From Gillisia hiemivivida (GTDB lineage Bacteria > Bacteroidota > Bacteroidia > Flavobacteriales > Flavobacteriaceae): a stretch of 64,000 nt of DNA. The stretch covers positions 1-64,000 of the forward strand of contig NZ_VORY01000005.1 of assembly GCF_007997295.1 (NCBI RefSeq), written 5' to 3'. The notes under the pieces were generated by a model. That model was not told the DNA's origin. It worked only from the letters and a program-made list of their open reading frames with translations, and searched no databases. The first letter of the stretch is position 1; every line of letters begins with the position of its first letter. Below are positions 604 through 48,310 of the stretch, piece by piece. The position numbers were made by a program, and so were the translations under genes.

Positions 604-706
604 GGATGGTTCGGGAGGAAATTCTTTTAAAAATTCGAGGCAAGCCCGCCTGAATGAAATTCTTTTCGGGCAGGCCTCGGGGAATTGAACCCTCAATGAG
701 GGATTA
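604..706 (-). repeat. Dispersed repeat R, copy 1 (left-truncated)
   Basis: Carries the hairpin block GGTTCGGGAGG, the CGAGGC...GCCTCG stem and the terminal palindrome CCCTCAATGAGGG. Read on the minus strand it starts TTTAATCCCTC, and the TAA in that start is the stop codon of the small gene at 704-880. The half of the element that normally lies to the left is missing at the IS boundary. Confidence 0.85.
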
Positions 707-880
707 AACGAACATCGCCATTAAGCTACCACCAATAGCTCCAGAACTAACACCTGTAATAATTCCTAATACTGGAACACCAATTACATCTCCTAAAACA
801 TATCCTATGCATAATCCAAATATGCAGCCTATACACAAGCCAATAAAAATTCGAAGTTTATTCTTGTGAAACTTTTTCAT
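704..880 (-). CDS. Small glycine-rich membrane protein
   Basis: A 58-residue protein from the ATG at 878-880 (a TTG two codons upstream is also possible). A basic start (MKKFHKNKLR) is followed by two hydrophobic stretches rich in Gly, Ile and Val separated by a short polar turn (GDVIG), typical of a two-helix membrane hairpin. No family is recognised. Its TAA stop lies in the end of repeat copy R1, so the repeat may have trimmed the reading frame. It belongs to the run of small membrane proteins in the first 7 kb. Confidence 0.55.
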   Translation of the reverse strand: MKKFHKNKLRIFIGLCIGCIFGLCIGYVLGDVIGVPVLGIITGVSSGAIGGSLMAMFV

Positions 881-1109
881 AATCAATTAAATAATATAAA
901 TAAAGGGGTTGGTTAAACCTTTAATTAATACTATTAGATCACTTAATAAATCTTAGGGAACAATTTATTCTTAGGGAGACCTCAAAATATTAAACAAAAG
1001 CGAATTCCATAAATTCATCTTTTAAAAAATAATCTCGAAGGAAGGGCATTCGTGAATGGAAATTTAAAATTAGTTTATTTATTTTGACAAAAAAAATACA
1101 TTTAATTAT

Positions 1110-1559
1110 TTAAAGAGTTTTACAAAAACAAACACTGCTTTTTACTTCTGCGTACTGGCCGTAATTTTTAGAGATCTCATATCCATTTTTAAGATATAGC
1201 CCGACAGCCTCTTTAAAAGTTGTTCCCGTTTCTAAGATACATTTTTTGTAACCTAGCTCCTTTGACCATTGCTCCAACTCGGCTAACATGTTACTCGCTA
1301 TCTTCTTTCCTCTTCCTTCGGGCAACACAAACATTCGTTTTATTTCTAGGGTCTCTTCATCATACTTCTTAAAAGCTCCACAACCAAGTGGTTCCTCACC
1401 ATCATAAGCAACAATTACATGATTTATAGTATCAATTTTATTGAATTGAGCAAAAAACGCATGCTCATCTCCATCTCTTATCACCAGTTCTTTATCGAGC
1501 ATTTTATTCAGGAAATTAAAGTCTACATTCTCTGAGTTGGTTCTTTTTAATTCTATCAT
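1110..1559 (-). CDS. GNAT family N-acetyltransferase
   Basis: 149 residues. Acetyl-CoA-dependent acetyltransferase fold: the pyrophosphate-binding motif V-L-P-E-G-R-G-K-K-I-A lies at about residues 78-88, followed by the helix NMLAELEQWSKELGY and the strand KKCILETG, then the late LYLKNGYE block that closes the fold. Substrate unknown; small single-domain enzymes like this acetylate amines, amino acids or antibiotics. It is monocistronic in appearance, with another GNAT of a different subgroup just upstream in the same direction. Confidence 0.85.
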   Translation of the reverse strand: MIELKRTNSENVDFNFLNKMLDKELVIRDGDEHAFFAQFNKIDTINHVIVAYDGEEPLGCGAFKKYDEETLEIKRMFVLPEGRGKKIASNMLAELEQWSKELGYKKCILETGTTFKEAVGLYLKNGYEISKNYGQYAEVKSSVCFCKTL

Positions 1560-1590
1560 AATTTGATCTTAAGCTCAAAAATACTTTTAT

Positions 1591-1725
1591 CTAATTCTCT
1601 TCCGGTAAATTTTCATCTTTAAAAATTTCTCCAGAGATATCATGCAAAATGCAAGGTATTTTACTAGGACTAGCCAAATTGGCCATTAGTAATACAAGCA
1701 TACATTTAAATAATAGCTTCTTCAT
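1591..1725 (-). CDS. Possible small secreted peptide overlapping a GNAT gene end
   Basis: A 44-residue frame from the ATG at 1723-1725 to TAG at 1591-1593. It begins MKKLLFKCMLVLLMANLA, a good signal-peptide-like segment, then SPSKIPCILHDISGE. It overlaps the last 20 bases of the GNAT gene at 1706-2248 in another frame, an arrangement seen with translationally coupled genes. No family recognised and it may be a chance frame. Confidence 0.3.
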   Translation of the reverse strand: MKKLLFKCMLVLLMANLASPSKIPCILHDISGEIFKDENLPEEN

Positions 1726-2248
1726 ACCAATTCGCTTTCCATTTATAAAGCAATAAGGGCTCCTTGCTATTTGGCAGGCTAATTTCTTCTAAATACTTAA
1801 AATCCAGTTTTTCGAGTAATTTTTGTAAACCCAGATTCATCCTATTTGTTATAGCACAAAGCCTTTCCAACTTAAACTCCAATAAAGCGATCTCTTTAAT
1901 TTTAAAAGCACTTTCAAACGCATAACCTAGCTTTTCATATTCAGGTAAAAATGCGAATCCTATATCTATACCTTCCACCCCTTCCCTATCATACAATCCG
2001 CAACAACCAATCTTTATATTATCAGATTTTCTTGATACTGTAAAATTACAATAGCCATTTTTCTTGATCACGGGTAATATATCATTGTTAATATAGGTTT
2101 CAGCATCTTGTATATTACTAATATTTCTATCTCCAATAAATTTGCTCCATTTTGGAGTATTCAATAATTCGAAAATAAAAGCAGAATCATCCAAAGTGGT
2201 TTGTCTGAGTACTAACCGCTCAGTTTGGTAGGTTAAGTCTCGATTCAT
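1706..2248 (-). CDS. GNAT acetyltransferase, RimJ/RimL type
   Basis: 180 residues. The opening TERLVLRQTTLDD is the hallmark first strand of the RimJ/RimL subgroup (Acetyltransf_3), followed by FLPEYEKLGYAFESA in the acetyl-CoA-binding region and GLQKLLEKLDF near the end. Such proteins acetylate protein N-termini, amino sugars or small metabolites; the substrate here cannot be told. It shares no close similarity with the GNAT at 1110-1559, so the pair is not a recent duplication. Confidence 0.85.
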   Translation of the reverse strand: MNRDLTYQTERLVLRQTTLDDSAFIFELLNTPKWSKFIGDRNISNIQDAETYINNDILPVIKKNGYCNFTVSRKSDNIKIGCCGLYDREGVEGIDIGFAFLPEYEKLGYAFESAFKIKEIALLEFKLERLCAITNRMNLGLQKLLEKLDFKYLEEISLPNSKEPLLLYKWKANWYEEAII

Positions 2249-2287
2249 ATAGATATTTTAATCAGCTAAAGATCGAAAATATATAGT

Positions 2288-3166
2288 TTAAATCACAACT
2301 TGTTTTTCTAAGACCTTTATATTCCAATTCGCAAGTTCTGCAGCGTTAGTATAGGTGCTATGTAAAAAAGCTAGTAACATTTTAGATAGATCTTCAGATT
2401 GTTGGACGTCTTTATAAGGCAAAATAAATTCTCCCATATCTTTAAAATAATAACCGCTCTTAGGTCTTATATGTGCGCTATTAAAACCTTTTGGTTCTGG
2501 ATATATATTATTATAGATAGCGGCAAATGGCAACATTTCATTTCCAGGCCAAATTCCGCTAGTGCTTACTTCATGAGAGTATGCTTTATGGTTATCCCCA
2601 TCTGGTAAATTAGGAATTCCTGCAGGATGTTTAGGGGTCTCCTTCCCAGAAAAACGGGAAACAGCTAGATCAAAACAGCGCCAAAAGAAATATACAGGAC
2701 TTGATTTTCCAATAAATTCTGCACGAAACTAATTAAAAACCTCGGGGCAGGCCCACGAGGTATGTCCCGATGGTTCGGGAGGAAAATACTTTTAAAAATT
2801 CGAGGCAAGCCCGCCTGAATGAAATTCTTTTCGGGCAGGCCTCGGGGAACCTGCCCAGCCGGTCAGGCGGGTTAAACCCTCAATGAGGGATTAAAAACCT
2901 CATCTACATTTAACAACACGGTATACCAATTAGAAGCATGTACAGAATGAGATTCGTTATGCTTTTCATCTTTATCGAATGGGATGGGATCTACCATTTT
3001 ATTAGGAGTCCTATTCATTTTCTCCTCGATCCCAAATTCCTTCAAAAATTCTGCTACATTTTTCCAACAATTAACAACGGACATATTCTTTAAACTGAAA
3101 GACCTATTTTCTCCTTTACTTGTTACAAAAGTCGCCAGTTTTATGGATATAATAAAAAACTAGAAA
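2288..3166 (-). pseudogene. DUF5996 family protein, broken by a repeat insertion
   Basis: Two pieces of one gene lie on the minus strand. The piece from about 3166 to 2895 encodes ...TFVTSKGENRSFSLKNMSVV...FGIEEK...NWYTVLLNVDEVFN. The piece from about 2730 to 2288 continues FRAEFIGKSSPVYFFWRCFD...HEVSTSGIWPGNE and ends KVLEKQVVI. In DUF5996 proteins VDxVF is directly followed by xFRAxFIGK, so the 164 bp between the pieces (repeat R2) is an insertion. In-frame TAG codons occur at the downstream junction and near 3160, and the N-terminal third is absent: another repeat copy (R3) sits where it should be. The function of the family is not established. The gene is almost certainly dead. Confidence 0.8.
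2731..2894 (-). repeat. Dispersed repeat R, copy 2 (inside DUF5996 gene)
   Basis: The longest copy. It has all four hairpin blocks (CCTCGGGG...CCACGAGG; CCCGATGGTTCGGG; CGAGGC...GCCTCG; CCCTCAATGAGGG) plus an extra CCTGCCCAGCCGGTCAGGCGGG palindrome before the last block. It interrupts the DUF5996 frame between the Asn of VDEVFN and FRAEF, and adds NPSLRV and a stop to the first piece. Both junctions carry GAGGTTTTTAAT on the minus strand, which could include a target duplication. Confidence 0.9.
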
Positions 3167-3276
3167 TCAAGAACCTCGTGGCAGGCCCACGAGGTATGTC
3201 CCGATGGTTATGGAGGAAAATACTTTTAAAAATTCGGGGCAGGCCTTGGGGAATTAAACCCTCAATGAGGGATTAA
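3165..3276 (-). repeat. Dispersed repeat R, copy 3
   Basis: Starts AATCAAGAACCTCGTGG, which forms a perfect stem with CCCACGAGG ten bases on, and ends CCCTCAATGAGGGATTAA. It lies exactly where the DUF5996 remnant loses similarity, so it may mark the breakpoint that removed the gene's N-terminus. The central CGAGGC...GCCTCG stem is degraded here. Confidence 0.88.
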
Positions 3277-3572
3277 ATCAGTAAAAATTGAAATAATCGA
3301 GGATAAGAAACCTATTGAGTGATGTATTATCTACCTCTTAGCGTTTCTATTCTTTAGTCATCATAAATGCTGAAGAATAATTATAATAGTGTGAAACTGG
3401 GCAATTGTTTATAGCAATTCCTATGCATTGCCTTTTATAATCTGAAAAATCAAAAAAGGTTAAGGTGGCTGTTAATATTCGTTAAGCAGATAAATTATGT
3501 TTAAATTTTACTATAATTTTAATATAGAAAAAAATTAATGAACCCATAAAATACCGCACAGCGGAAAACGAT
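3277..3572. other. Intergenic, no gene seen
   Basis: Between repeat copy R3 and the hydrophilic protein gene. AT-rich, with no frame of note on either strand and no clear promoter box. It may hold the eroded remains of the DUF5996 5' end, but no recognisable residues survive. Confidence 0.4.
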
Positions 3573-3884
3573 ATGAAAGCAAAAGACAAAAACTCAGAAA
3601 AGAAAGAAAATTTAAAATACAATCCAGAAATTACCGAGCACGATAAGGACGTTCTTAACCAAGACAACATCCACGGCGATGGAGGCGATGACCAGGAATT
3701 GAAAGACAGAAAAAGAAAAGTAGATTTTGCTGGTGAAGATCTAGATGTTCCTGGACGTAATCGAGCAAAAAAAGGAAACGGACCCGGAGGTATTAATGAC
3801 GAGGAAAACAAACTCTTTAGCCAAGGTGGTGATTCTAAAGATAACTTAGAACGAGATGACGCTGCGAATCAAAAAAAGAAGTAA
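3573..3884 (+). CDS. Hydrophilic, disordered hypothetical protein
   Basis: 103 residues, with almost no hydrophobic core, no cysteine and many Lys, Asp, Glu, Asn and Gly. It begins MKAKDKNSEKKENLKYNPEI, has a central DVPGRNRAKKGNGPGG and ends in a lysine run. Composition suggests an intrinsically disordered, highly soluble protein of the kind induced by stress or desiccation, but this is inference from composition only. An antisense frame of similar length over it reads as low-complexity Ser/Phe/Leu and is taken as a shadow. Confidence 0.65.
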   Translation: MKAKDKNSEKKENLKYNPEITEHDKDVLNQDNIHGDGGDDQELKDRKRKVDFAGEDLDVPGRNRAKKGNGPGGINDEENKLFSQGGDSKDNLERDDAANQKKK

Positions 3885-4065
3885 TAGTTTAAAGAATTAT
3901 TTTTGATACTTCTCAAAAAGACATAAATCTATAGGAAATTACCAAAGCAGTAAAAAACCATTTCTGTTTTATCAATTGGAAACTCTTGTTGGAAATGAAT
4001 ATAGGAGATAAAACTAGACCAATTATAAAAATGATTTAAACTATTAAATGGATAACAAAGCTAGA

Positions 4066-4527: not shown

Positions 4528-4775
4528 GCTCTAAAATTTTATCACTGTACTTGCAAATAAATTGTAGGGAACTTATTACTGCTTTAATTATATAAGACGT
4601 TAGTTTTAATTTTTGTTACTGCTAAATTCACACTTTTTGTGAAAAGAATTGAAATCTATTTCTAAATCATTGTGGATCTTAAAACTACAGCAAAAAAAAT
4701 TTGCCAGTTTATCCTTTTGGCGCGTAGGATTTACCATAAATACTTTTTCAAATAGAAGACATTTCGAAAGCTATG

Positions 4776-4804
4776 GGGAAGGGGAATTAAACCCTCAATA
4801 TGGG
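4776..4804 (-). repeat. Dispersed repeat R, copy 4 (short, degenerate)
   Basis: Only the terminal part survives: GGGGAATTAAACCCTCAATATGGG, with the palindrome damaged on one side. It starts one base past the stop codon of the membrane protein gene at 4805-5212; TAG of that gene occupies the same place as the TAA of intact copies. Confidence 0.65.
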
Positions 4805-5212
4805 CTATGCTTTTGCAACTTCTTTAATGTTCTTACTGATATAAAAGCTTAATAAATAATATGAGAATATCAAGATCAAGAACTCATAACTACTCTTCAT
4901 CTCGAACGAATCCCCTGAATAAAATATAGCCGATAAGGAGTCAAAAATTACTACAACTACTCCAAAACCCAAAGATTCAATTAATTTTTTAGCTCTTATT
5001 TTTTGTATTCGTGGAGTTTCAATTTTCTCTTTAGAAAAAACGAAAACAATTAATGATAGCAGTATGAAGTCTTTTAAAATCCAATTTAGTCTGATAACCT
5101 CTAGATTAATATAGTCTGCTATAGGATCAGAAAAAACGAGCCCAATAATTAAAAATAGCAGAATGGCGAGCACAATTTTTCTCAAAGAATTAGGCAATAG
5201 TTTTTCGTTCAT
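4805..5212 (-). CDS. Hypothetical multi-pass membrane protein
   Basis: 135 residues with four likely transmembrane segments: about 10-29 (IVLAILLFLIIGLVF), 43-59 (ILKDFILLSLIVFVF), 78-95 (FGVVVVIFDSLSAIF) and 105-125 (FLILIFSYYLLSFYI). The loop KEKIETPRIQKIRAKKL is strongly basic and should face the cytoplasm. No family recognised. The gene ends next to a degenerate repeat copy (R4). Confidence 0.6.
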   Translation of the reverse strand: MNEKLLPNSLRKIVLAILLFLIIGLVFSDPIADYINLEVIRLNWILKDFILLSLIVFVFSKEKIETPRIQKIRAKKLIESLGFGVVVVIFDSLSAIFYSGDSFEMKSSYEFLILIFSYYLLSFYISKNIKEVAKA

Positions 5213-9601: not shown

Positions 9602-12187
9602 TCAGCGTATTAGTGAAAAATGCCCTTTAAAGGTTCTTCCATCACTTAAATTAACTATAAACCAGTAATCATTGGAAGGCATTAGATTTCCATTGAATGT
9701 ACCATCCCACCCCGTACTGTGTGAAGCTAGTTCTTTTAATAATTTACCATATCTATCATAAATTAATATTTTTGATTCTGGTAATTTATCTACTCCATCT
9801 ATTTGCCAGCTATCATTGTATCCATCATTATTGGGAGTAAAAACTTTGGGATAACCTATAACTGAGATATCAATAAGGCTAATACCACAGCCTTTTTTAT
9901 CTCTAACATATAGTGTATGAATACCTGAACTTACATTTTCAAAAAATGGAATATCTTGATAATTTGAAAACTCACTATCTAAAGAAAATTCATAATCTCC
10001 TTGCCCAAGACTTGAAGTATTAATTGCTATAGTATTATTATTAGAATTGTCAACCACTGATATATCATTTTGATTAATTTGAGCCATTTCTGATGTATTC
10101 ACAAAAATATCTCTTGTCCTAGAGCAACCTGATCCATCTGTTTTAGTTAATGTAATTGAATAAGTTCCTGGGGTAAAAACGGTTAAAGTTGGAGCATTAG
10201 ATAAAATTGTGCCGTCTTGATATGCCCACTCGTAATCATAAACCTCTAAAAGGTTTGTTTCAATTGGATCTAAAACTACTGTAAATGTTGGATCAGAAGA
10301 ACAAACTACCTGTGGAGTATCTATTGAAAAGTCTGGCAACGGGTCGACAATAAACACTATATCTGTTTTAGCAATACAAGACCTGTTCATTGGGTTTATA
10401 ACTTCTACTGTAATAGTTTGTGTTCCAGAAGCAAATGGATTTGGCAGTGGACTTGGTAATTCTATATCTGATTCGCTATAATAATGTACTTCCATACCTG
10501 TTTGTCCATTTAAAACATCACTCTCAATTTGTGAAGTATCAAAGTCATGAAATCCATCGGTATCATCGGCACCATCATCGCAGGATATTTGATTTGCTAC
10601 ATGATTAGCTAAAGGTTGTTTATCTACAATAAATTCTAGAGCAGTTTCAGCAAAGCAACTTCCATCACTTATATTATTATTAGTTACTCTGACTGTCACA
10701 ACTTGACTAGTTGTAAAAAAAGGGTTCGGCAAAGGATTCTGTAAAAGATTATTATTCTCATCTAAGTAGGTTAGCGTAACATTTGATAATGATTGCCCTC
10801 CAATAATAGTTGATTCTACAAGAGATACATCAAAAGGGAATTCCCCATCTTGATCATCATCACATTGTCTATCAATAGTAACTGGATTTGCTACTGGAAT
10901 TGGCTCTACATATAAATTTATATATGCTCCTAAACCTAAACAATCATTATCTAGTCCCCCGTCTACTCTAATATATACTTGTTGCGTATTTGGATAGCCG
11001 ATATTTCTGTGATTTGAAGTATCCATAATTGGATTCTCTTCTGCTAAAGCATCGGCTTCATTTCTGTAATAATTAATTATTAATTGTTGTCCTATAGGAA
11101 ACATAGCTTCTATTTCAGCATGTATACTACTAAAATCAAATTGTGAAATCCCATCAGTATTATCATCACATACATAGAAGTTTTTGGTAAATGTATTAGG
11201 TATTTGTGTTGTAGTAACAATCAATTTAACCTGACTTGTTCTGTAACAAGCATTATTATTCTCTACTCTTGCCCAAACAATGTCTTTGCTAACAGTTTGA
11301 TTGGTATAAACTGTTCTATTTGTAATAGGATTATTATTGTTTTCTGCATCTATTTGAGATTCAAAAAAAGAAATGGTTTCATTTGCTGAATTAGTTGTTA
11401 TTTCTGGAATAACTTCATCTAGATTAAATGCACTAAACCCATCTAAATCATCATCACATTGTTTAAGTTCAACTATTGATGATATTTGTGGAAGATCATA
11501 AATTGTGACAGTCGTAGTTTCGATAGCAGTATCTGTACCAACTGTTGGAGTAACACTAACTTCATAAGTTCCTGGGTTAGAAAACACATGTGTTGGTTCT
11601 ATATCTGTAGATTTATTATTTACTCCAGAAGAAAGGTCATCAAAATCCCAAACTGCTGAATCTACAACATCTGAAAGCAAAAATTTTGTAGTATCTCCAA
11701 AACAAGTATTCTCAAAAGTTATTCCTTCAATATAAAAAAGTGAAGACACAAAAGTTGGTAGTCCTAAACCACTTTTTCTTCCTTCGAGATACATTTCATT
11801 ATATTTATAATTACAGCCAATTCCTAAAACATTAGGGTTTTCTATAATATCTATATACGATCTACCAGATTTGGCAACATAAATCTTAGCATCTGGACCA
11901 AGTTGTAAAGAAGAATATGGCTCTCGTGTTGAAGATTGTAATACTACACCTGAATTGTAAATATCAATTGGCGCACCTGCCAATAAATTATACTGACTAA
12001 CCCCTGGGTAATATGAAACATATAACAAATCACTATTAGGAGAAAATTCAATTCCATATGGGTTTCCTGGCGGATTTAGATCAGTAATAAGACTTACAAC
12101 TTTTCCTGTATTAATATTAAAATTCATTGTCGTCCGACAAAAGATATAAGATCGCTGCGCTGCTAGATTCAAGATGTAAGACTTCAT
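9602..12187 (-). pseudogene. T9SS type B exported protein, 3' part cut off by a MITE
   Basis: Codes for the body and C-terminus of a large cell-surface protein. Up to about 12124 the frame reads FNINTGKVVSLITDLN...GIEFSPNSDLLYVSYY (beta-propeller-like). Next come a PKD-like domain (TWD-type DFDDLSSGVNNKS), about four repeats starting QCDDDxDGxxxFD, and a final gliding-motility/CHU_C type sorting domain, PKVFTPNNDGYNDSWQIDG...KILIYDRYGKLL...WDGTFNG, recognised by the type 9 secretion system. The first 20 codons (12128-12187) come from the inserted MITE and are not native. Without the signal peptide, which sits in the other part, this piece cannot be exported. Confidence 0.85.
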
Positions 12188-12349
12188 TTCAACTAATTGA
12201 AAATCAATATTTTAATCTGCGTGAATTTTTCAAAAAGGAAAAAATAATTCTGTGTTCCAATAGCAAGCTCCTAAACATTGAAAACAGTCTTAATCCACGT
12301 TACTTCTAGCCTCACCGAAATCCAGAATTTTTTTTACCGGACAATACTA
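12125..12349. mobile_element. 225-bp MITE, copy 1 (9-bp target duplication ATTAAAATT)
   Basis: Begins CATTGTCGTCCGACAAAAG and ends TTTACCGGACAATACTA; the ends are imperfect inverted repeats (ATTGTCGTCCG against ATTGTCCGG). Flanked on both sides by ATTAAAATT (12116-12124 and 12350-12358). A second copy of exactly the same length lies at 37952-38176, about 90 percent identical by eye. It contains no gene of its own, so it must depend on a transposase elsewhere. It splits the T9SS protein gene. Confidence 0.92.
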
Positions 12350-15029: not shown

Positions 15030-15109
15030 ATCTTTGAGTGTTTGAAGTTAAAGTTTGAATTATCTTTTAAATTTTCTCTAAAGTAAATAAAAAAAATCAA
15101 AACCAGATG

Positions 15110-15130
15110 GCGCGGAATTGCATTCCGTGC
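15110..15130. repeat. REP-like palindrome upstream of RAYT
   Basis: GCGCGGAATTGCATTCCGTGC, a 9-bp stem around TGC, similar in form to the palindromes downstream of the RAYT gene at 15774-15922. It lies about 75 bases before the RAYT start, so the gene is bracketed by palindromes on both sides. Confidence 0.6.
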
Positions 15131-15206
15131 CCATAAAGTGACGCAAATACAAAAACTACTGTAGTGATATGTTAGTTTTTTATAACTTCAAATAAAAAGC
15201 ATTACT

Positions 15207-15761
15207 ATGTCAACAAAATATAAAGCTACAACAACTGAAGAAGCTTTTTTTATAACCATCACTACAGTAGGTTGGATTGATATTTTTACCAGATTAAATC
15301 AAAAACAGGTCATCATCAAAGCATTGCAGTATTGCCAACAGAACAAAGGTTTAGAAATATATGCCTATTGTATCATGTCTAGTCACATTCATTTGCTTTG
15401 TAAGGGTACAAAAGGCTTTGTTTTGTCGGATATCATTAGAGATTTTAAAAAATTCACATCCAAGAAAATTATTCAAACCATAAATGAAGAACCTGAAAGT
15501 CGACGCGAGTGGATGTTAGATTATTTTAAAAAATCCTGTGAACATCTAAAAAGAGAACAACAATACAAAGTTTGGCAAGATGGATATCATGCAGAAATTG
15601 TGGAAACCAATTGGTTTATAAAGCAAAAAGTAAATTATATCCACAATAATCCTGTAAAAGACAAAATTGTAGCTTTGCCAGAAGATTATTATTTCAGTTC
15701 CGCAAGAAATTATGCTGATTTAGAAAATGATCTAGCAGTTGTTTTGTTAGATTTATTTTGA
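15207..15761 (+). CDS. REP-associated tyrosine transposase (RAYT)
   Basis: 184 residues. Single-strand DNA nuclease of the HUH Y1 superfamily (IS200/IS605-related). It shows the metal-binding HUH pair in MSSHIHLLCKG (His60, His62), the YKVWQDGYHAEI strand (about 120-131) and Tyr144 in NYIHNNPVKDKIV, the expected nucleophile, followed by the conserved DYYFSSARNYA tail. RAYTs are domesticated transposases that bind and cleave REP palindromes and are thought to spread them. Here REP palindromes flank the gene on both sides, as expected for the family. Its start is the ATG after AAAAAGCATTACT. Confidence 0.92.
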   Translation: MSTKYKATTTEEAFFITITTVGWIDIFTRLNQKQVIIKALQYCQQNKGLEIYAYCIMSSHIHLLCKGTKGFVLSDIIRDFKKFTSKKIIQTINEEPESRREWMLDYFKKSCEHLKREQQYKVWQDGYHAEIVETNWFIKQKVNYIHNNPVKDKIVALPEDYYFSSARNYADLENDLAVVLLDLF

Positions 15762-15773
15762 TAGTGGTTGCTA

Positions 15774-15922
15774 GCACGGATTGTAGGTCTGCGCTGTCGG
15801 GGCTGTCGTAGATGCACGCGCGGATTACAAATCCGCGTTGTCGGGAGGCAGGCACGATTGCAAACGCTGTAAGCACGGATTACAAATCCTCGCTGTCGGG
15901 TTTACAAATCCGCGCTGTCGGG
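15774..15922. repeat. REP palindrome array downstream of RAYT
   Basis: Four units of the form GCACGGATTACAAATCCGCG followed by CTGTCGGG, at about 15774-15801, 15814-15845, 15873-15900 and 15901-15922, plus a worn unit at 15852-15872. Each has the inverted pair GCGGATT...AATCCGC and the constant foot TGTCGGG. The array starts 13 bases after the RAYT stop. It is too irregular and its spacers too short for a CRISPR. Confidence 0.88.
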
Positions 15923-20002: not shown

Positions 20003-20109
20003 GATACTAATTTAGATTCATTTTTCAATTAAGAAGCTCTGTGCAACTCCACGAGATATATCCCAAGCTATCAGTAGGATTATAATTTCAAAACGCGACA
20101 TTTCAATAG

Positions 20110-20661
20110 CTATTTGGTCGGGGAATTAGACCCTAATGATGGATTGAATTTTTCAAAAATTATATTTTTAGGGTTACTTTCATCAAATCTGTCTGTATTC
20201 AGAACAAACTCGTTCTTTCTCAATAATTTTGTTGAAGCCTCGTTATTTTTTTGCGTGAAGGCTTCAATTTTATTAAAACCCAAAACATTGAAACCAAATT
20301 TTAAAACTACTGTCATTGCTTCATTCATGATTCCCGTATTGTGAAATATTGGATCTAGATCGTAACCTATTTCAGCAGTTTTTCTATCTTCAGAAAAATT
20401 CCACAAGCAAATAGAACCAATCATTCCAAAATCATTTTTAAGAGAAATAGTCCACTGAATTGTTTCTGAATTTTTGATACCTAGTTTTGTTCTTTCTATA
20501 AAATCTATCGCTTTCTCCTTCGTATCTGCATTCGGCCGTTTTACAAATTGATTCACAATAGGATCTGTTCGCAAATAGGAAACTCGTTTCCAATCTGACT
20601 TCAATAATTCTCTTAAAACCAATCTTTCTGTTTTTAACTGAGGAAAAGGTTTAAACTTCAT
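20110..20661 (-). CDS. GNAT acetyltransferase, RimJ/RimL type, with repeat-derived tail
   Basis: 183 residues. KTERLVLRELLKSDWKRV is the RimJ/RimL opening, GSICLWNFSEDRKTAEIGYD and FHNTGIMNEAMTVVLKFGF form the acetyl-CoA site, and NNEASTKLLRKNEF is the conserved late helix. The last dozen residues, FNPSLGSNSPTK, are coded by a degenerate copy of repeat R (R5) rather than by acetyltransferase sequence; the native protein probably ended at about FEK. This is the third acetyltransferase of the window; substrate unknown. Confidence 0.85.
   Translation of the reverse strand: MKFKPFPQLKTERLVLRELLKSDWKRVSYLRTDPIVNQFVKRPNADTKEKAIDFIERTKLGIKNSETIQWTISLKNDFGMIGSICLWNFSEDRKTAEIGYDLDPIFHNTGIMNEAMTVVLKFGFNVLGFNKIEAFTQKNNEASTKLLRKNEFVLNTDRFDESNPKNIIFEKFNPSLGSNSPTK
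20119..20148 (-). repeat. Dispersed repeat R, copy 5 (short, degenerate, within a gene end)
   Basis: CGGGGAATTAGACCCTAATGATGGATTGAA matches the end of intact copies with several changes. The stop codon normally present (TAA) has become TCTAAT in frame, so translation of the GNAT gene reads through it as FNPSLGSNSP. Confidence 0.7.
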
Positions 20662-28135: not shown

Positions 28136-28139
28136 GCTA

Positions 28140-29655: not shown

Positions 29656-30012
29656 ATGTTACTTTGGTTACTACATATTATTATAGATGCGGGAGTTTTA
29701 CTACTTGCTGCAAAATTTATGAGCAAGGTTGAGTTAAAAGGCTTCAAATCTGCCATAATCGTCGCATTAATTATTGGTGTGTTCAGTTTTCTTTTAAGCT
29801 GGTTATTAACCTCCTTGCTAAATATTGCAACCCTTGGTATCTTCTATTTCTTAGGATTAGGATTTATAACTAGAGTAATTGCGTATGCTATCATCATCGA
29901 ACTGGCAGATCAAGTAAGTAAAGATTTTAAAACTATAGGTTTTATAACCTCGATCTGGCTTGCAATTATACTTGCGTTGGCTGGTGCGATAGTAGATGCT
30001 ATTCTATTTTAA
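29656..30012 (+). CDS. Phage holin superfamily IV-like membrane protein
   Basis: 118 residues, four transmembrane helices with short loops: LLWLLHIIIDAGVLLLAA, SAIIVALIIGVFSFLLSW, LGIFYFLGLGFITRVIAYAI, SIWLAIILALAGAIVDAI. The pattern and length match the widespread PF04020 four-helix family (named after phage holins but mostly chromosomal and of unknown role). No phage genes are nearby. The TAA stop is followed within three bases by repeat copy R6. Confidence 0.65.
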   Translation: MLLWLLHIIIDAGVLLLAAKFMSKVELKGFKSAIIVALIIGVFSFLLSWLLTSLLNIATLGIFYFLGLGFITRVIAYAIIIELADQVSKDFKTIGFITSIWLAIILALAGAIVDAILF

Positions 30013-30140
30013 AAACTTAAACCCTCATTTAGGGTTCAATCCCAGTACCGATAGCTATAGGGCTGACTCGAACTTTAAAAAGTGTTTTTTTTCCGAAGTA
30101 TCAGGACATACCTTTTGGGCTTGCTCCGAGGTTTGTGATT
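30013..30140 (+). repeat. Dispersed repeat R, copy 6 (diverged)
   Basis: Plus orientation: TTAAACCCTCATTTAGGG, then a diverged body (CCGAAGTATCAGGACATACC, GGGCTTGCTCCGAGG) and GTTTGTGATT. About three quarters of the positions agree with intact copies. It follows directly the stop of the holin-like gene. Confidence 0.75.
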
Positions 30141-36649: not shown

Positions 36650-36762
36650 AATTAAGAGCCTCGGGGGCAAGCATACCAGGTATGTCCCGATGGTTCTGGA
36701 GGAAAATACTTTTGAAAATTCGAGGCAAGCTTAAGGGAAAGAAACCCTCAATGAGGGATTAT
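36650..36762 (-). repeat. Dispersed repeat R, copy 7
   Basis: AATTAAGAGCCTCGGGGG start, TCCCGATGGTTCTGGAGG hairpin and the CCCTCAATGAGGGATTA end; the CGAGGC stem has lost its partner. On the minus strand it begins directly after the hairpin at 36762-36811, i.e. after the presumed terminator of the DsbA-like gene. Confidence 0.85.
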
Positions 36763-36811
36763 AAAGACTCAGCTCCATATCTATATACAAATATGAAGCT
36801 GAGTCTTTTAA
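36762..36811. terminator. Long hairpin, probable terminator
   Basis: AAAGACTCAGCT...CATAT pairs with ATATG...AGCTGAGTCTTT, about 17 pairs with one mismatch. It lies 100 bases beyond the stop of the leftward DsbA-like gene. T-runs on either side are short, so it may act in both directions or as an RNA 3' stabiliser. Confidence 0.6.
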
Positions 36812-37912: not shown

Positions 37913-37951
37913 CTTTATTTTATTACAAAAATCATGTTATTATTTATTTAT

Positions 37952-38176
37952 CATTGACGTCCGACAAAAGATATAAGACCGCTGCGCTGCTAGATTCAAG
38001 ACGTAAGACTTTATTCCAACTAATTTGAAAATCACTATTTTAATATGTATAAATTTTTCAAAAAAGAAAAAATAATTCTGTGTTCCAATAGCAAGCTCCT
38101 AAACATTGAAAACAGTCCTAATCCAGGTTAATTCTAGCCTCACCGAAATCCTGAATTTTTTTACCGGACAATACTA
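37952..38176. mobile_element. 225-bp MITE, copy 2 (9-bp target duplication TTTATTTAT)
   Basis: CATTGACGTCCGACAAAAG to TTTACCGGACAATACTA, flanked by TTTATTTAT at 37943-37951 and 38177-38185. Same length and same orientation as copy 1 with scattered substitutions. It lies between the EthD gene and the AhpD-like gene, right at the position expected for an intergenic promoter. Confidence 0.92.
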
Positions 38177-39519: not shown

Positions 39520-39562
39520 AATCAAGAACCTCGGGGAATTAAACCCTCAATGAGGGATTAAA
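39520..39562 (-). repeat. Dispersed repeat R, copy 8 (43-bp short form)
   Basis: AATCAAGAACCTCGGGGAAT followed by TAAACCCTCAATGAGGGATTAA: both ends of the element without its middle, as though the two CCTCGGGG boxes of a full copy had recombined. It codes for the last seven residues and the stop of the TetR gene. Confidence 0.9.
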
Positions 39563-40215: not shown

Positions 40216-40357
40216 AATCAAGAACCTCGGGGCAAGCCCACAAGGTATTTCCCGATGGTTCGGGAGGAAAATACTTTTAAAAATTCGAGGCAAGCCCGCC
40301 TGAATGAAATTCTTTTCGGGCAGGCTTTGGGGAATTAAACCCTCAATGAGGGATTAA
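40216..40357 (-). repeat. Dispersed repeat R, copy 9 (full length)
   Basis: A complete 142-bp copy between the divergent TetR and DUF3820 genes, with all four hairpin blocks and both ends (AATCAAGAACCTCGGGG and CCCTCAATGAGGGATTAA). It is the reference for the element in this window. Unlike most copies it is not next to a gene end. Confidence 0.92.
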
Positions 40358-40459
40358 AATTTTATTCTTTTTTGTATCTGTTATACTCGGCGTTAAAATA
40401 AGTTTTCAATAAAAAATAAAAACGAGTTCTCTAAAATTTTTAGTTCTTATTTTAGCAGC

Positions 40460-42532: not shown

Positions 42533-44386
42533 ATGGAAGAAAAAAAATTTGACGTACAATCCTTAATAGGATTTTTCCTTATTGGTGGACTTTTAATATG
42601 GATGTTGTACAACAATTCCTTTGAGAATAACGAAGCTGAAGATAAACAAGATACTATAGAACAGGTTGAGACTGTTCCTCAAGAAACTAATACTTCACAA
42701 AAAGATGTTGCTATCCAGGAGATGGATTCTACAGCAAGAGCTAGAGTGCAGGAATCATTAGGAACTTTTGGTTATTCTGCAACATTAGCTTCAGCATCAA
42801 ATGAAACTACTAAGTTAGCTAACGACGTTTTAGATTTAAACATCGATAATAAAGGTGGTTATATCTCTGAAGCAAGGATGACTCAGTTTAAAACCTACGA
42901 TTCTATTCCTGTTTATCTTATAAAGGATGGAAATGCATCTTTAAACTTAAATTTTACCACTTCTGACGGTCGCGTGATCAATACAAAAGATATGTATTTT
43001 GAACCTACTTTATCAGAAAGTGGAAACAATCAGGTGCTTTCTATGAAACTAAAGGTTTCAGAATCTGAATATCTAGAATATGTATATGTGATGAAACCGG
43101 GAGAATATATGTTGGATTTCAGCATTCGTTCTCAAGGTTTAAGAGATGTTATAAGTAGTTCTAATGCTGTGAATCTAGACTGGCAACTAAAAGGATATCG
43201 ACATTCTAAGAGTATTTCCTATGAAAACAGATATACCGAATTAGCATGGGAATATGAAGATGGGGACGATGACTATCTTGGACAAGGAGAATTGAAGGAT
43301 GATGAAGCAGATGATATATCCTGGGTTGCTTATAAACAACACTTCTTTTCTTCAATTTTATTAACCGATACTCCTTTTGCCACAGGTAAATTCATTTCTA
43401 AAAATCTTGTTGAAGATGAAGAAATAGATACCGTTTACACCAAGGAATTTGCAACTACGTTGCCATTAGAATTAAAAGGCGGAGAACTTAATTATAATAT
43501 GAATTGGTACTACGGACCAACAGATTATAAAATTTTAAACGATTACGATAGAAACCTAGACGAAGTTGTACCATTAGGTTGGGGAATTTTTGGTTGGATT
43601 AACAAATATGTATTTATTCCGTTTTTCGCGTTCTTATCAGGGTTTTTACCTAGTTATGGGATTGCAATTATTGTAATGACTATTGTAGTAAGAATTGTAC
43701 TCTCACCAGTAACTTACAAGTCTTATTTATCTCAAGCTAAAATGAAGGTTTTAAAACCTGAAATTAATGAGCTTAACGAGAAATATAAGGACAATGCAAT
43801 GAAAAAGCAGCAGGAAACCATGAAGCTTTATAGCAAGGCAGGAGCCAGCCCTATGAGTGGATGTTTGCCAGCATTAATGCAGATTCCGGTCTTTTATGCC
43901 TTATTTCAGTTCTTTCCTAGTGCCTTCCAATTGAGGCAAAAAGGATTCCTTTGGGCAGATGACCTTTCTAGCTACGATACTATAGCAGAATTGCCATTTA
44001 CCATTCCATTCTATGGAGATCACGTGAGTTTATTCCCGATTTTGGCATCTATTGCTATCTTCATTTACATGATGATGACAACCGGTCAAACAATGCAGAA
44101 CAATCAGCAACCAGGAATGCCTAACATGAAATTTATCATGTACTTATCTCCTATCATGATGTTGTTCTTCTTTAACAACTATGCCAGTGGACTTTCACTT
44201 TACTATTTTGTATCTAATTTAATTACAATCGGGATCATGCTTGTAATTAAGTATGCTATAATAGATGAAGAAAAGATCCATGCTAAAATCCAGGAGAATA
44301 AAAAGAAACCTAAGAAGCAAGGAAAGTTTGCTAAGAAAATGCAAGACATTATGGAGCAAGCAGAACAACAGAAAAATAAGAAATAA
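42533..44386 (+). CDS. yidC: Membrane protein insertase YidC
   Basis: 617 residues. First helix SLIGFFLIGGLLIWMLYNN, then a large periplasmic beta-sandwich (about 60-345) as in Gram-negative YidC, then the conserved insertase core of five helices: GFLPSYGIAIIVMTIVVRIV, CLPALMQIPVFYALFQFFPS, LFPILASIAIFIYMMMTTG, and MMLFFFNNYASGLSLYYFVS. A basic tail (KKPKKQGKFAKKMQ) may bind the ribosome. It inserts and folds inner membrane proteins with or without SecYEG. Probably an operon with pyrG, ended by the terminator at 44406. Confidence 0.96.
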   Translation: MEEKKFDVQSLIGFFLIGGLLIWMLYNNSFENNEAEDKQDTIEQVETVPQETNTSQKDVAIQEMDSTARARVQESLGTFGYSATLASASNETTKLANDVLDLNIDNKGGYISEARMTQFKTYDSIPVYLIKDGNASLNLNFTTSDGRVINTKDMYFEPTLSESGNNQVLSMKLKVSESEYLEYVYVMKPGEYMLDFSIRSQGLRDVISSSNAVNLDWQLKGYRHSKSISYENRYTELAWEYEDGDDDYLGQGELKDDEADDISWVAYKQHFFSSILLTDTPFATGKFISKNLVEDEEIDTVYTKEFATTLPLELKGGELNYNMNWYYGPTDYKILNDYDRNLDEVVPLGWGIFGWINKYVFIPFFAFLSGFLPSYGIAIIVMTIVVRIVLSPVTYKSYLSQAKMKVLKPEINELNEKYKDNAMKKQQETMKLYSKAGASPMSGCLPALMQIPVFYALFQFFPSAFQLRQKGFLWADDLSSYDTIAELPFTIPFYGDHVSLFPILASIAIFIYMMMTTGQTMQNNQQPGMPNMKFIMYLSPIMMLFFFNNYASGLSLYYFVSNLITIGIMLVIKYAIIDEEKIHAKIQENKKKPKKQGKFAKKMQDIMEQAEQQKNKK

Positions 44387-44405: not shown

Positions 44406-44437
44406 AAAGGTTCGATAAATTATCGAACCTTTTTTTA
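44406..44437 (+). terminator. Terminator of the pyrG-yidC unit
   Basis: AGGTTCGATA with TATCGAACCT around AAT, followed by seven T. Repeat copy R10 starts in the same T run. Confidence 0.9.
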
Positions 44438-44550
44438 TTTAATCCCTCATTGAGGGTTTAATTCCCCGAGGCTTGCCTCGAATTTTTAAAAGTATTTTCC
44501 TCTCGAACCATCGGGACATACCTCATGGGCTTCCCCCGAGGTTCTTGATT
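44438..44550 (+). repeat. Dispersed repeat R, copy 10
   Basis: Plus orientation, TTTAATCCCTCATTGAGGG to CCCCCGAGGTTCTTGATT. It follows the yidC terminator without a gap, the same relation as R7 to the hairpin behind the DsbA-like gene. Lacks the CCCGCC...GGCGGG part of the central stem. Confidence 0.9.
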
Positions 44551-44655
44551 TATTTAGTTCCCGAAAGTTGCCTTCATCATAATTTATAATAAAAACCTTT
44601 TTTCAAAGTTATATTTGAAATCCTATCTTTACAATCCAAATTAAAACCTATTGAT

Positions 44656-45081
44656 ATGAAAAAGATCTTTTTACTATTTTTTAGCTTAGCATTATTAACC
44701 TCTTGTAGTAGCGATGATGACGGAGGAACCTCGGGAGATGATAAAATTCTAGGTAAGTGGTTCGTTACAGAAATTAATAATACTGGTGCTTTCCCTATTG
44801 AAATAAATGATTGCAACAGACAATCATTTATCGATTTTAAATCCGATTTTACAGCTGACTCTGCATTATATGCTGAAGAAAATGGAGAATGTAATGTAGA
44901 TAATTCAGAAAATGACGATTGGAGTAGTTTAGGGGATTCTAGATATAGGTTTGTAATACCTTTTGAAGGAATTGGTGCTCAAGCAGGAAGAGCAGATTTC
45001 AATGCCGATCTTACTGAATTTATATTTTATCCTGATTTCCTTGCTGGACAGAACACCAATATCGTATTCGAAAAAAGATAA
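44656..45081 (+). CDS. Lipocalin-like lipoprotein
   Basis: 141 residues. Lipoprotein signal MKKIFLLFFSLALLTSC with lipid-bearing Cys17, then a Ser/Asp linker (SSDDDGGTSGDD), common in flavobacterial surface lipoproteins and possibly part of a surface-export signal. The body starts ILGKWFVTEI, the lipocalin-type first strand, and ends IVFEKR. Function unknown. Own terminator downstream. Confidence 0.75.
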   Translation: MKKIFLLFFSLALLTSCSSDDDGGTSGDDKILGKWFVTEINNTGAFPIEINDCNRQSFIDFKSDFTADSALYAEENGECNVDNSENDDWSSLGDSRYRFVIPFEGIGAQAGRADFNADLTEFIFYPDFLAGQNTNIVFEKR

Positions 45082-45104
45082 AATTTAATAACATAGAATC
45101 AAAA

Positions 45105-45130
45105 GAGGGTAGTTTTTACTACCTTTTTTT
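45105..45130 (+). terminator. Terminator of the lipocalin-like gene
   Basis: AGGGTAG with CTACCTT around TTTTTA, followed by seven T. Confidence 0.8.
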
Positions 45131-45149
45131 GTTAGCTTAAATTAAGAAC

Positions 45150-45420
45150 AAGGGCATCAAAAAAATCACGTTTTCGTCAAGCTGAGACCCGTGATAAATA
45201 AATTTATCTAACGTAGGAAATAGAGGTATGAAAGATGCTGAGCATGACGGAAGATAAAACCAGTATTGTCACCCTGAACTTGTTTCAGGGTCTCTTATTT
45301 CGGGCAACGAAAAATACGGTAATGTTAACTTGTTTCAGCTTCTAAGCTTTTAGACCCCAATCCGTTGAGATCCTGAAATAATTCCGATAGCTAATGGAAC
45401 AGGATGACGAATCATTTACT
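45150..45420 (+). repeat. Mosaic repeat B, copy 1 (upstream of mnmA)
   Basis: About 260 bp. Blocks in order: GTCAAGCTGAGACCCGTGAT, a stretch TTATCTAACGTAGGAAATAG, GATGCTGAGCATGACGGAAG, and GTCACCCTGAACTTGTTTCA with its completing GGGTCT (hairpin CACCCTGAA/TTTCAGGGT). The same order recurs at 46795-47046 on the far side of mnmA, so the gene is flanked by direct repeats. Confidence 0.8.
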
Positions 45421-45445
45421 ATTTAGAAAACCACTTATAATTTCG

Positions 45446-45453
45446 TAATTTTG
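45446..45453 (+). promoter_or_regulatory. -7 promoter box of mnmA
   Basis: TAATTTTG, exact TAnnTTTG, 68 bases before the ATG at 45522. The long leader suggests room for post-transcriptional control. Confidence 0.6.
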
Positions 45454-45521
45454 CAGACGGAAATCCGACAATTATAAGAATTATCAAACCTCCGATTTGT
45501 TGGAGTGAAGGAAGTTAAAAT

Positions 45522-46709
45522 ATGAAAAAAGTAGTGGTTGGTCTATCTGGAGGAGTAGATTCTAGTGTGACCGCATATTTATTGCAACAACAGGGATATG
45601 AAGTTATAGGCTTGTTCATGAAGAACTGGCACGATGATACCGTAACTATTTCTGATGAATGCCCATGGTTGGATGATAGCAATGATGCTATGATGGTTGC
45701 TGAAAAATTAGGGATTCCATTCCAAACAGTAGATTTAAGTGAGGAATACAAGGAGCGTATTGTAGATTATATGTTTCGTGAATATGAGTTAGGTCGTACT
45801 CCTAATCCAGATGTACTTTGCAATCGAGAAATAAAATTTGATGTCTTTATGAAGATCGCTCTTTCTTTGGGAGCAGATTATGTTGCCACAGGACATTATT
45901 GTAGAAAAGGTATTATAGAGAAAGATGGGGAAACTGTCTACCAACTTTTAGCAGGTAAAGATGATAATAAGGATCAGTCTTATTTCCTATGTCAGCTTAC
46001 TCAAGAGCAGCTTTCTAAAACGCTTTTCCCAATTGGAGAGCTTCTAAAACCAGAGGTGCGAAAAATTGCTGCTGAACAAGATCTTATCACTGCCGATAAA
46101 AAAGACTCCCAAGGGCTTTGTTTTATTGGGAAGGTTAGATTACCAGAATTTCTTCAGCAAAAACTGAAAGCAAAAGAGGGAGTAATTGTAGAAATAGATT
46201 CTCATAGAGAACAATATCAAGATCTACCAGTTCATTTCAACTCTAAAGCGGAGGAATTGGAGCTTCTTTCTAAGAAGTTTCAGTATGAACTAGCAGATGG
46301 AAAAATAGTTGGAAAACACCAAGGAGCTCACTATTTCACTAAAGGACAACGAAAAGGTTTGGCAGTGGGTGGAACGCCGGAACCTTTATTTGTGATAGAT
46401 ACAGATGTAGATGAGAATATTATCTATACAGGTCAAGGAAAAGAACATCCGGGCTTATTTAGAAAAGCGTTGTTTGTTAAAAATGAAGAAGTACACTGGG
46501 TTCGTAAAGATCTAGCAATTGCGCCAGATTCTGAACTTAAAGTTCAGGCCCGAATTAGATATAGACAAGAATTACAGGAAGCTACCTTGCATCAAACCGA
46601 AAACGGACTCTATGTGCTGTTCGAAAAAGCGCAATCGGCAATAACAGGGGGACAATTTGTTGCTTGGTATTTAGAAGATGAATTGGTGGGGTCTGGAGTG
46701 ATTTCATAA
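45522..46709 (+). CDS. mnmA: tRNA-specific 2-thiouridylase MnmA
   Basis: 395 residues. PP-loop [13 protein letters not shown] at the start, the catalytic cysteines in [12 protein letters not shown] and [11 protein letters not shown], and a C-terminal beta-barrel ([14 protein letters not shown]). It thiolates U34 of the tRNAs for Lys, Glu and Gln. The length is at the upper end for the family because of an insertion around residue 230 ([15 protein letters not shown] region), seen in Bacteroidota enzymes. Monocistronic, flanked by mosaic repeats. Confidence 0.96.
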
Positions 46710-46715
46710 ATTTGA

Positions 46716-46738
46716 TTTTATTTTATTTTATTTTATTT
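46716..46738. repeat. TTTTA microsatellite after mnmA
   Basis: Four to five TTTTA units directly after the mnmA stop. It could slip during replication but has no coding effect. Confidence 0.7.
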
Positions 46739-46794
46739 GAAGATTGAAATTGATTGAGAAATATGGGATATCCGCAATTAATATCAACGCGGGC

Positions 46795-47046
46795 TTGGTC
46801 ATGCTAAGACCCGTGATAAAAAAATTATCTAGCGGAGGAAATTGATTTATGTAAGATGCTGAAACTCCCGATGCTTCGGGACAGCATGACGGAAGTTAAA
46901 ACCAGTATCGTCACCCTGAACTTGTTTCAGGGTCTCTTATTCAGAGTAATTTTGAAATACGTCAATGGTAACTTGATTCAGCATCTCATCTCAATAACTT
47001 TATTATGAGCCCCTGAATCTCCAGATATTTCGGGACAGAGTGACGA
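46795..47046 (+). repeat. Mosaic repeat B, copy 2 (downstream of mnmA)
   Basis: Same blocks as copy 1, with GCTAAGACCCGTGATAAAAA, TTATCTAGCGGAGGAAATTG, and GTCACCCTGAACTTGTTTCA. It carries an extra CTCCCGATGCTTCGGGACAG hairpin. Its first block in reverse complement also matches the ends of the 454-bp tandem units at 55.4 and 55.85 kb. The gap 46710-47250 holds nothing else but the microsatellite and R11. Confidence 0.8.
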
Positions 47047-47127
47047 TAACAATATGATGCTTTGCTGACAATCAAAAGAAATATAATGCTTTATTAAAAA
47101 TTACCGCGAATTCACTAATTAGAAATC

Positions 47128-47168
47128 AATCAAGAACATCGAGGAATTAAACCCTCAATGAGGGATTA
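47128..47168 (-). repeat. Dispersed repeat R, copy 11 (short form)
   Basis: AATCAAGAACATCGAGGAAT followed by TAAACCCTCAATGAGGGATTA: like R8, only the two ends. It lies about 80 bases upstream of the nitronate monooxygenase-like gene, pointing away from it. Confidence 0.85.
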
Positions 47169-47250
47169 TATTGGAGGATTCGTGGCTTTTAAATTATGTT
47201 AAACTTGGTCTAGATGTTCCTAAAATTTGAATAAACCTGAATCATAAAAT

Positions 47251-48192
47251 ATGCAGAATAGAATTACCGAACTTTTCAATATTAAATACCCATTAATTCA
47301 AGCAGGAATGATTTGGGCAAGCGGATGGAAACTTGCAAGCGCAGTAAGCAATAATGGTGGATTGGGAATAATTGGAGCAGGTTCTATGTATCCGGAAATT
47401 CTAAGAGAACATATTCAGAAATGCAAAAAAGCAACCGATTTCCCATTTGCGGTAAATGTTCCTATGCTCTATCCAGATATAGATAAGGTTATTGAGATCA
47501 TTATTGAAGAAGGAGTCCAAATTGTTTTTACCTCTGCCGGAAACCCTAAAACTTGGACCAAGCATTTACAGAGCCATGGTATAAAAGTGGTTCACGTGGT
47601 GAGTAGCGTAAAATTTGCGTTGAAATCTCAAGAAGCAGGAGTAGATGCTGTTGTTGCTGAAGGTTTTGAAGCCGGAGGACATAATGGAAGAGATGAAACT
47701 ACTACGTTCACCTTAATCCCAATGGTAAAGGAACAACTTAAAATACCACTTATCGCCGCCGGAGGAATTGCTACAGGCAGAGGCATGCTTGCAGCGATGG
47801 TATTGGGGGCAGATGCGGTACAAATTGGCTCGAGATTCGTTGCTAGTAACGAAGCATCTTCACATCAAAATTTTAAAAATAGGGTAGTTGAAGCAAAAGA
47901 AGGAGATACCCAATTAACTTTGAAAGAATTGGCTCCTGTGCGCATGATTAAAAATAAGTTCTTTAATGAAATACAAGAACTGTATCAGACTGTTCCAACC
48001 AAAGAAGAACTAATGACCTTACTAGGGCGTGCTCGTGCCAAAAAAGGGATGTTTGAAGGGGACATGGAAGATGGCGAATTAGAAATAGGCCAGATCTCAG
48101 GACTAATTCATGATATAAAACCGGCAAGAGAAATTATTCAGGAAATTATTGCTGAATTTGATATAGCTAAGTTAGAAGTGGCTAATTTTTAA
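47251..48192 (+). CDS. Nitronate monooxygenase-like (FabK/2-nitropropane dioxygenase family) flavoprotein
   Basis: 313 residues. FMN TIM-barrel: YPLIQAGMIWASGWKLASAV at the start, SNNGGLGIIGAGSM, the flavin site DAVVAEGFEAGGHNGRDET, PLIAAGGIATGRGMLAAMVL and GADAVQIGSRF. Members either oxidise nitronates or reduce enoyl-ACP (FabK); the HN in GGHNG fits the family generally and does not separate the two. The TAA stop forms the first bases of repeat copy R12. Confidence 0.88.
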   Translation: MQNRITELFNIKYPLIQAGMIWASGWKLASAVSNNGGLGIIGAGSMYPEILREHIQKCKKATDFPFAVNVPMLYPDIDKVIEIIIEEGVQIVFTSAGNPKTWTKHLQSHGIKVVHVVSSVKFALKSQEAGVDAVVAEGFEAGGHNGRDETTTFTLIPMVKEQLKIPLIAAGGIATGRGMLAAMVLGADAVQIGSRFVASNEASSHQNFKNRVVEAKEGDTQLTLKELAPVRMIKNKFFNEIQELYQTVPTKEELMTLLGRARAKKGMFEGDMEDGELEIGQISGLIHDIKPAREIIQEIIAEFDIAKLEVANF

Positions 48193-48310
48193 GCCCTCAT
48201 TGAGGGTTTAATTTCTTGTTCCGATCCTATCGGAATGCCTCAAATTTTTGAAATTATTTTCCTCCCGAGCCCTCGGGACATACCTCCTGGGCTTGTCCCG
48301 AAGTTCTTAG
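48189..48310 (+). repeat. Dispersed repeat R, copy 12
   Basis: Plus orientation, TTAAGCCCTCATTGAGGG to CTTGTCCCGAAGTTCTTAG. Its first bases are the stop codon of the upstream gene. The CCCTCGGGACATACC and CCTGGGCTTG blocks are present, with a diverged central stem. It separates two convergent genes. Confidence 0.88.

Follow-up and report, generated by a model that had tools for sequence, protein, structure and literature searches.

A short repeat near gene 3' ends in Gillisia hiemivivida is very probably a palindrome-associated transposable element

The first 64,000 nucleotides of contig NZ_VORY01000005.1 of Gillisia hiemivivida (Flavobacteriaceae), from now on referred to as the window, carry 12 copies of a short structured repeat, here named R, several of which lie at the 3' ends of genes. 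This raises the question of what kind of element R is and why it is found there. An initial annotation of the window proposed that R is either a transposon targeting gene ends or terminators or a sequence kept at gene ends as a transcription or mRNA-end signal. A profile search of the window recovered the same 12 copies at the same coordinates, numbered R1 to R12 in coordinate order (Table 1). Our analysis indicates that R is very probably a palindrome-associated transposable element (PATE), consisting of the ends of an IS200/IS605-family insertion sequence (IS) without its transposase gene and mobilized in trans by a transposase of the Y1 (HUH) type, TnpA.

The terminal motif of R, CCCTCATTGAGGG, has 114 exact matches in the G. 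hiemivivida genome (G000; 3.73 Mb, 56 contigs), 61 and 53 on the two strands, while the same motif read backwards as a control has none. Stretches fetched around 100 of these 114 places, together with five more, contained 115 profile matches; both ends were found in 100 copies and the other 15 were dropped. Control hexamers were taken from the same flanks, and some are counted twice where flanks overlap. R is 19–183 bases long, with uncertain ends in a few of the 100 elements (copies of 19–57 bases), and 98 of the 100 measure 35–183 bases, too short for a transposase gene.

Insertion sites of R and an IS200/IS605 element with the same ends

R is an insertion, and relatives within the genus keep the site without it. 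Exact empty sites lacking any target duplication were found at eight loci, namely those of R8, R9, R11, R12 and of one copy each in the fetched loci L050, L032, L038 and L024. The hexamer preceding R, or a near hexamer, is already present in these empty sites (e.g. TTTAAT, TTTAAG, TTAAAT or TATAAT), the relative's hexamer differing by one or two bases for R9 and L032. The TTTAAT that had been taken as the start of the repeat is thus the host target. It stands in exact form before 72 of the 100 copies, and the target profile shows T at 0.87–0.96 for positions -6 to -4, A at 0.94–0.95 for -3 and -2 and T at 0.97 for -1, with AT-rich background beyond. At L041, one R is inserted into an older R at the internal TTTAAT of the latter.

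Read in the sense of the transposon strand, R follows TTTAAT directly, begins with CCCTC and ends with TTCTTGATT (also written as CCCTCATTGAGGGTTTAATTCCCCGAGG to CCTCGTGGGCTTGCCCCGAGGTTCTTGATT). Palindromes lie near both ends, CCCTCATTGAGGG and CGAGGCTTGCCTCG on the left and CCTCGTGGGCTTGCCCCGAGG on the right, of which 37-base forms of R retain only the left one. DNA folds of three full copies are more stable than those of shuffled sequences (z -2.5 to -3.2). In each of the four R-sense sequences tested, the minimum-energy DNA fold pairs TTAA of the target with an internal TTTAA across the left hairpin; the centroid fold of the 37-base form does not keep this pairing. Elements of the IS200/IS605 family recognize their target through an internal guide, and the predicted TTAA/TTTAA pairing may represent recognition of this type.

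An autonomous element with the same ends is found in genome G001, which appears to be Gillisia limnaea. This IS200/IS605 element is 551 bp long (557 bases including the target), starts with TTTAATCTCTATTGGGTTTAATTCCCCGAGGCTTGCCTCG, ends with CCTCGTGGGCTTGCCCCGAGGATTATTTACT and carries a transposase gene between its ends. Its Y1 transposase gave seven equal-score matches with a frame of 172 amino acids (aa); four copies of the element that were compared fall into two sequence versions, and the protein is the same in the five copies on scaffold C2. The translation contains HVH and Y motifs, matches NCBIfam NF033573 with 116 bits (cut-off 55) and has matches in the Protein Data Bank labelled transposase, ISHp608 among them. 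R and the G001 element share the target TTTAAT and the same rule of strand (see below). Their left ends match exactly, in the same order and strand, over up to 27 bases, most commonly 19, compared with at most 10 in left-end shuffles over 25 copies; the right ends, for which no shuffle control was run, match over up to 24 bases, most commonly 21.

Relatives of the G001 TnpA at E ≤ 1e-30 occur in 14 of the 299 genomes of the family searched. Among 30 loci from these 14 genomes, which represent the clade in other genera, TTTAATC together with a matching left-end design was found in 19 of the 27 with enough left flank, and the right-end motif or design in 19 of 23. Based on the ends shared with the G001 element and on the target and end design of its clade, R is read as a gene-less relative of this clade, and a TnpA of the clade is the probable agent moving R. 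The Y1 genes of G. hiemivivida and of genome G002 were ruled out as partners by their different ends. An IS200-type element with at least four copies in G002 (L170, L179, L187 and L193) follows TTTAATT, ends with TTTTTACT and has hairpins unlike those of R. Pairs of R ends 260–4000 bases apart were seen ten times in the fetched loci, several being reverse-strand matches of the palindromic end. Outside the loci fetched for their Y1 genes, no close TnpA was present in the fetched loci except in G001; the next-best matches have 29–42% identity and lie in L104, L169, L080 and L079. The R profile had no match in 14 loci fetched for Y1 genes from Salegentibacter tibetensis, Galbibacter, Aquimarina and Gramella.

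Three further arrangements of R and Y1 genes were observed. In L104 (5–388), the record of a named metagenome-assembled genome, a fragment of a gene with 42% identity to the G001 TnpA is separated by about 220 bases from an exact left end of R, which is on the other strand (608–637). In G002, two co-directional R copies have a broken Y1 transposase gene between them (L197, 433–1352), and a different IS200-type element is inserted within a few bases of an R right end (L169, 9780–9660). Two copies of the latter element share TTGATT just before the element, as the R right end reads.

Replication strand and closeness to gene ends

The initial annotation described a polarity of R relative to genes. 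Genome-wide, this does not hold, as 27 copies between co-directional genes point with the genes and 25 against them; the clear polarity is to DNA replication. Replication arms were inferred solely from sampled GC skew. On the 3.56-Mb scaffold C2 of G001, 46 of 54 R copies fit a single switch from minus (27 of 33) to plus (19 of 21), the 54 being all but three double-strand rows among 57. The arms were drawn after the data had been seen, which the permutation test allows for, and 0 of 20,000 permutations reached 46 of 54. Sampled GC skew averages -0.038 before or after the switch and +0.023 on its opposite side, single stretches having the other sign. The five transposase copies on this scaffold obey the same strand rule, and the target hexamer is divided almost evenly between the strands (324:293). 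Agreement with GC skew was also found for 70 of 95 R copies in G. hiemivivida and for 55 of 78 in G002, where the count covers 78 of 98 matches, namely those among the matches listed that are not double-strand, and one or two sites centred on CCCTCAATGAGGG are ambiguous. Since the G-rich strand is usually the leading strand, R would lie on the lagging-strand template. R thus favours one replication strand, apparently the lagging-strand template. Insertion into this template is described for IS608 and ISDra2 in the part of PMC6006769 available to us.

For the location relative to genes, genes were called with a purpose-made scorer of open reading frames (ORFs) on joined flanks after removal of R. 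Only 11 of 100 R copies are inside genes, compared with 947 of 1341 control hexamers. When both sides of R are considered, a gene 3' end is found within 30 nucleotides (nt) of 41 of the 89 intergenic copies (control hexamers, 74 of 406) and a gene 5' end within 30 nt of nine of the 89 (81 of 406). A same-strand neighbour stands in front of 49 of 89 copies, compared with 156 of 398 control hexamers (p 0.009). The left end faces a stop codon within 30 nt in 28 of 49 cases (control 43 of 156, p 2.5e-4). For the right end, this is so in 15 of 47 cases, compared with 33 of 185 controls (p 0.04). The resulting left-to-right ratio of 28:15 does not differ significantly from the 43:33 of the hexamers (p 0.44). 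Closeness to gene 3' ends, as first noticed in the window, holds in comparison with control hexamers; of the orientation only some tilt remains. Eight left ends begin exactly one base past a stop codon, as predicted by the TAA inside TTTAAT. R lies in convergent and divergent spaces in a ratio of 22:14, compared with 56:113 for the hexamers.

The best reading of this closeness is probably that the target contains TAA and that insertions near gene starts are lost, an explanation that is good though incomplete. The polarity seen in the window is largely a local sample combined with the TAA in the target. We hypothesize that TnpA of the G001-element clade acts in trans on the ends of R, which would insert into single-stranded DNA of the lagging-strand template, with the target TTAA pairing with the internal TTTAA beside the left hairpin as guide. 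The TTTAAT of the host is kept 5' of the left end, and no target duplication is made. R would come to lie near the 3' ends of genes for two reasons, namely that TTTAA provides or adjoins TAA stop codons and that selection removes insertions near promoters and in genes.

Several observations do not fit this picture well. The right terminus reads CTTGATT in R but TTTACT in the G001 element, and the additional left hairpin of R (CCCTCATTGAGGG) is missing from the latter. Three related-TnpA loci of one genome (G166) have a different left end. In G. hiemivivida itself, a cognate TnpA is missing (no match at E ≤ 1e-30) and the two IS200-type genes have ends other than those of R. For the one 37-base form that was folded, stability does not exceed that of shuffled sequences (z -1.0). 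With regard to the strand bias, a freer fit of arms in G002, where skew is noisy, accommodates only 53 of 78 copies, and when only contigs of strong skew are used in G. hiemivivida, 23 of 34 copies agree (p 0.06). The enrichment at 3' ends exceeds the supply of hexamers (odds ratio 3.5 on the left-end side), so that target choice alone is insufficient as an explanation. Young and old copies are alike near 3' ends (23 of 50 and 24 of 50); a slow loss by selection is thus not visible, and a true preference for insertion at 3' ends may exist.

Such a preference would arise if gene ends, through transcription for instance, offered TnpA single-stranded DNA more frequently. The excess of R over hexamers near 3' ends and the position of 14 of the 30 most conserved copies, which are already near such an end, are consistent with docking at the time of insertion, but the shift towards convergent spaces is as expected if promoter regions are spared, and the same convergent-space pattern is shown by repetitive extragenic palindromic (REP) elements in the portion of PMC3733652 at hand. 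We consider this idea rather unlikely, and it would add to the PATE reading rather than replace it. A transposon that targets gene ends or terminators, one of the two original proposals, is right in so far as R, judged by its empty sites and IS200/IS605-type ends, is akin to transposons of the hairpin-recognizing kind. R follows TTTAAT, however, and not gene ends or terminators as such, the 3'-end excess over hexamers notwithstanding. Terminator-like hairpins stand in front of nine of 100 R copies and 40 of 406 controls, so that the hairpin noted before R10 is there but no enrichment exists over all copies, and targeting of terminators is ruled out.

The other original proposal, that R is kept at gene ends as an RNA signal, either a terminator or an mRNA-end structure, is very improbable. 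The stability of the hairpins in three full copies and the position of about half of all copies near 3' ends would suit such a role. An RNA signal is difficult to reconcile with the nearly equal numbers of copies with and against co-directional genes, with R sites that are empty in relatives and with an exact R terminus in only 13 of 79 relatives searched, or nine of 15 within the genus; moreover, no Rfam family reaches its gathering score at R, the only Rfam match in the window being a tRNA. REP elements have REP-associated transposases (RAYTs) as partners, and the window does encode a RAYT at 15207–15761 (NF047646, 106 bits, cut-off 80). It is nevertheless extremely improbable that R is a REP or REPIN moved by a RAYT such as this one. 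The gene is flanked by its own GC-rich palindromes (flanks 15085–15920), which are unrelated to R and rule out this RAYT as the origin of R, no R is located around it between 4809 and 20027, and the ends of R match an IS200-type element instead. A literature search on RAYT in Flavobacteriaceae returned nothing relevant by title. PATE remains the preferred reading of R.

Copies in the window and nested hairpin modules

The window contains full, decayed and ends-only copies of R. All six stop-codon neighbours initially described are there, with reservations at two of them: the ORF at 704–886 has only about 60 aa, and the stop codon at 39539–39541 lies within R8, as the gene of relatives runs a few codons further.

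Table 1 Copies of R in the 64-kb window.
Copy	Position	Strand	Description
R1	605..708	-	Target, left end and core; in place of the right part, other sequence that is also found behind the broken R in L018
R2	2731..2895	-	Full copy; nested hairpin modules M1 and M2L
R3	3165..3277	-	Full copy
R4	4720..4809	-	Decayed copy; at stop codon of ORF 4805-5212
R5	20027..20149	-	Decayed copy; overlaps end of ORF 20110-20661 (GNAT)
R6	30016..30140	+	Full copy directly behind ORF 29656-30012
R7	36650..36763	-	Full copy
R8	39520..39562	-	37-base ends-only form plus target; empty site in G006, G008, G002 and G015
R9	40216..40358	-	Full copy with module M2L; empty site in G008
R10	44438..44550	+	Full copy after terminator-like hairpin that follows yidC (42533-44386); not present in the five relatives aligned, flanks there too diverged to fix exact ends
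R11	47128..47170	-	Ends-only form (37 bases) plus target; empty site in G005; related R remnants in G006 and G014
R12	48188..48312	+	Full copy, target TTTAAG, at stop codon of ORF 47251-48192; common to G012; exact empty site in G006, G014, G004 and G002

A more unusual feature of R than its element kind is the presence of nested hairpins of 22–30 bp. Module M1 has 22 bases and follows GGGTTTAA, M2 has 23 or 30 bases and is found at GAGG/CTTGCC, M3 has 23 bases and is found at GTGGG/CTTGCC, and a fourth module is referred to as M4. With up to three substitutions allowed, at least one module is nested in 57 of the 100 R copies (four with M4 alone), in many combinations. The 23-base M2 has 34 matches in G. 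hiemivivida, one in G001 and one in G006; the 13 further genomes of the genus that were searched have none. Nine M2 sites of G. hiemivivida were fetched away from the listed R motifs; by profile, R surrounds six of them and is missing from three. A few modules stand without surrounding R (L253, L256, L259 and L260). Similar palindromic modules of 22–30 bases, some in tandem, are present in R copies of G001, and in both genomes nested modules are located at the tips of R hairpins (e.g. L049 at 10770 and L236 at 14286 on the minus strand). We tentatively suggest that these modules (CCTGCC...GGCGGG and kin) might be independently mobile, entering R hairpin tips (GG/CTTGCC) and other places without duplication and remodelling the ends of PATEs in a manner similar to the SMR-A repeats of Haloquadratum. 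Alternatively, they may spread together with R and by recombination. If self-mobile, they would count as some of the smallest mobile DNAs.

Near contig ends, broken copies of R occur in pairs that share the same foreign sequence within each pair (R1, window 574–604, with L018; L004 with L051; L043 with L059), as if another repeat or IS had entered R and broken the assembly. Two other repeats of the window are a pair of about 210 bases (12124–12334 and 37951–38162), 91–93% identical and unrelated to R, and three tandem units of 454 bases at 54965–55930, 90–98% alike over parts, beside a tRNA at 56070.

Comparison with known elements

The initial annotation knew of no named element with these properties; the PATEs of Haloquadratum walsbyi, as far as the accessible part of PMC3119063 describes them, have most of them. 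Like R, they are too short for a transposase, have palindromes near their ends and IS605-type ends, make no target duplication and leave a host target sequence conserved at one end. Other small repeats are inserted in their palindromes, the nested inserts being about 110 bases long compared with 22–30 in R, and strain-specific insertions occur although transposase genes are broken or missing. Ends-only forms of these PATEs derive from deletion of the core; the 37-base forms of R look alike and may have arisen in this way. R differs in being bacterial (Flavobacteriaceae), in having its own sequence and the target TTTAAT, and in that a bias of replication strand has been measured for it here.

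A PATE-like sequence of Halanaerobium hydrogeniformans is likewise an ends-only relative of an IS605 element, but exists in a single copy, and the tnpA genes of its family show no preference for leading or lagging strand (10 of 22), according to the part of PMC7290912 available. REP elements, as covered by the same portion of PMC3733652, resemble R in being palindromic, intergenic and mostly downstream of genes, in unidirectional and convergent spaces. They differ in having 20–40 bases and a GTAG or CGTC tag; most copies of R are longer, and its match is to an element of the IS200 type.

R is therefore real but mostly ordinary, a flavobacterial PATE family of a known element kind. A literature search that covered few subscription journals returned no title describing R in Flavobacteriaceae. 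R provides a bacterial PATE family of more than 100 copies with an autonomous relative, a target and exact empty sites, and three genomes that together form a natural test for a bias of replication strand. It further illustrates that docking at gene ends can arise largely from a TAA-containing target and the loss of harmful insertions, which calls for caution when repeats at the 3' ends of genes are taken to be functional.

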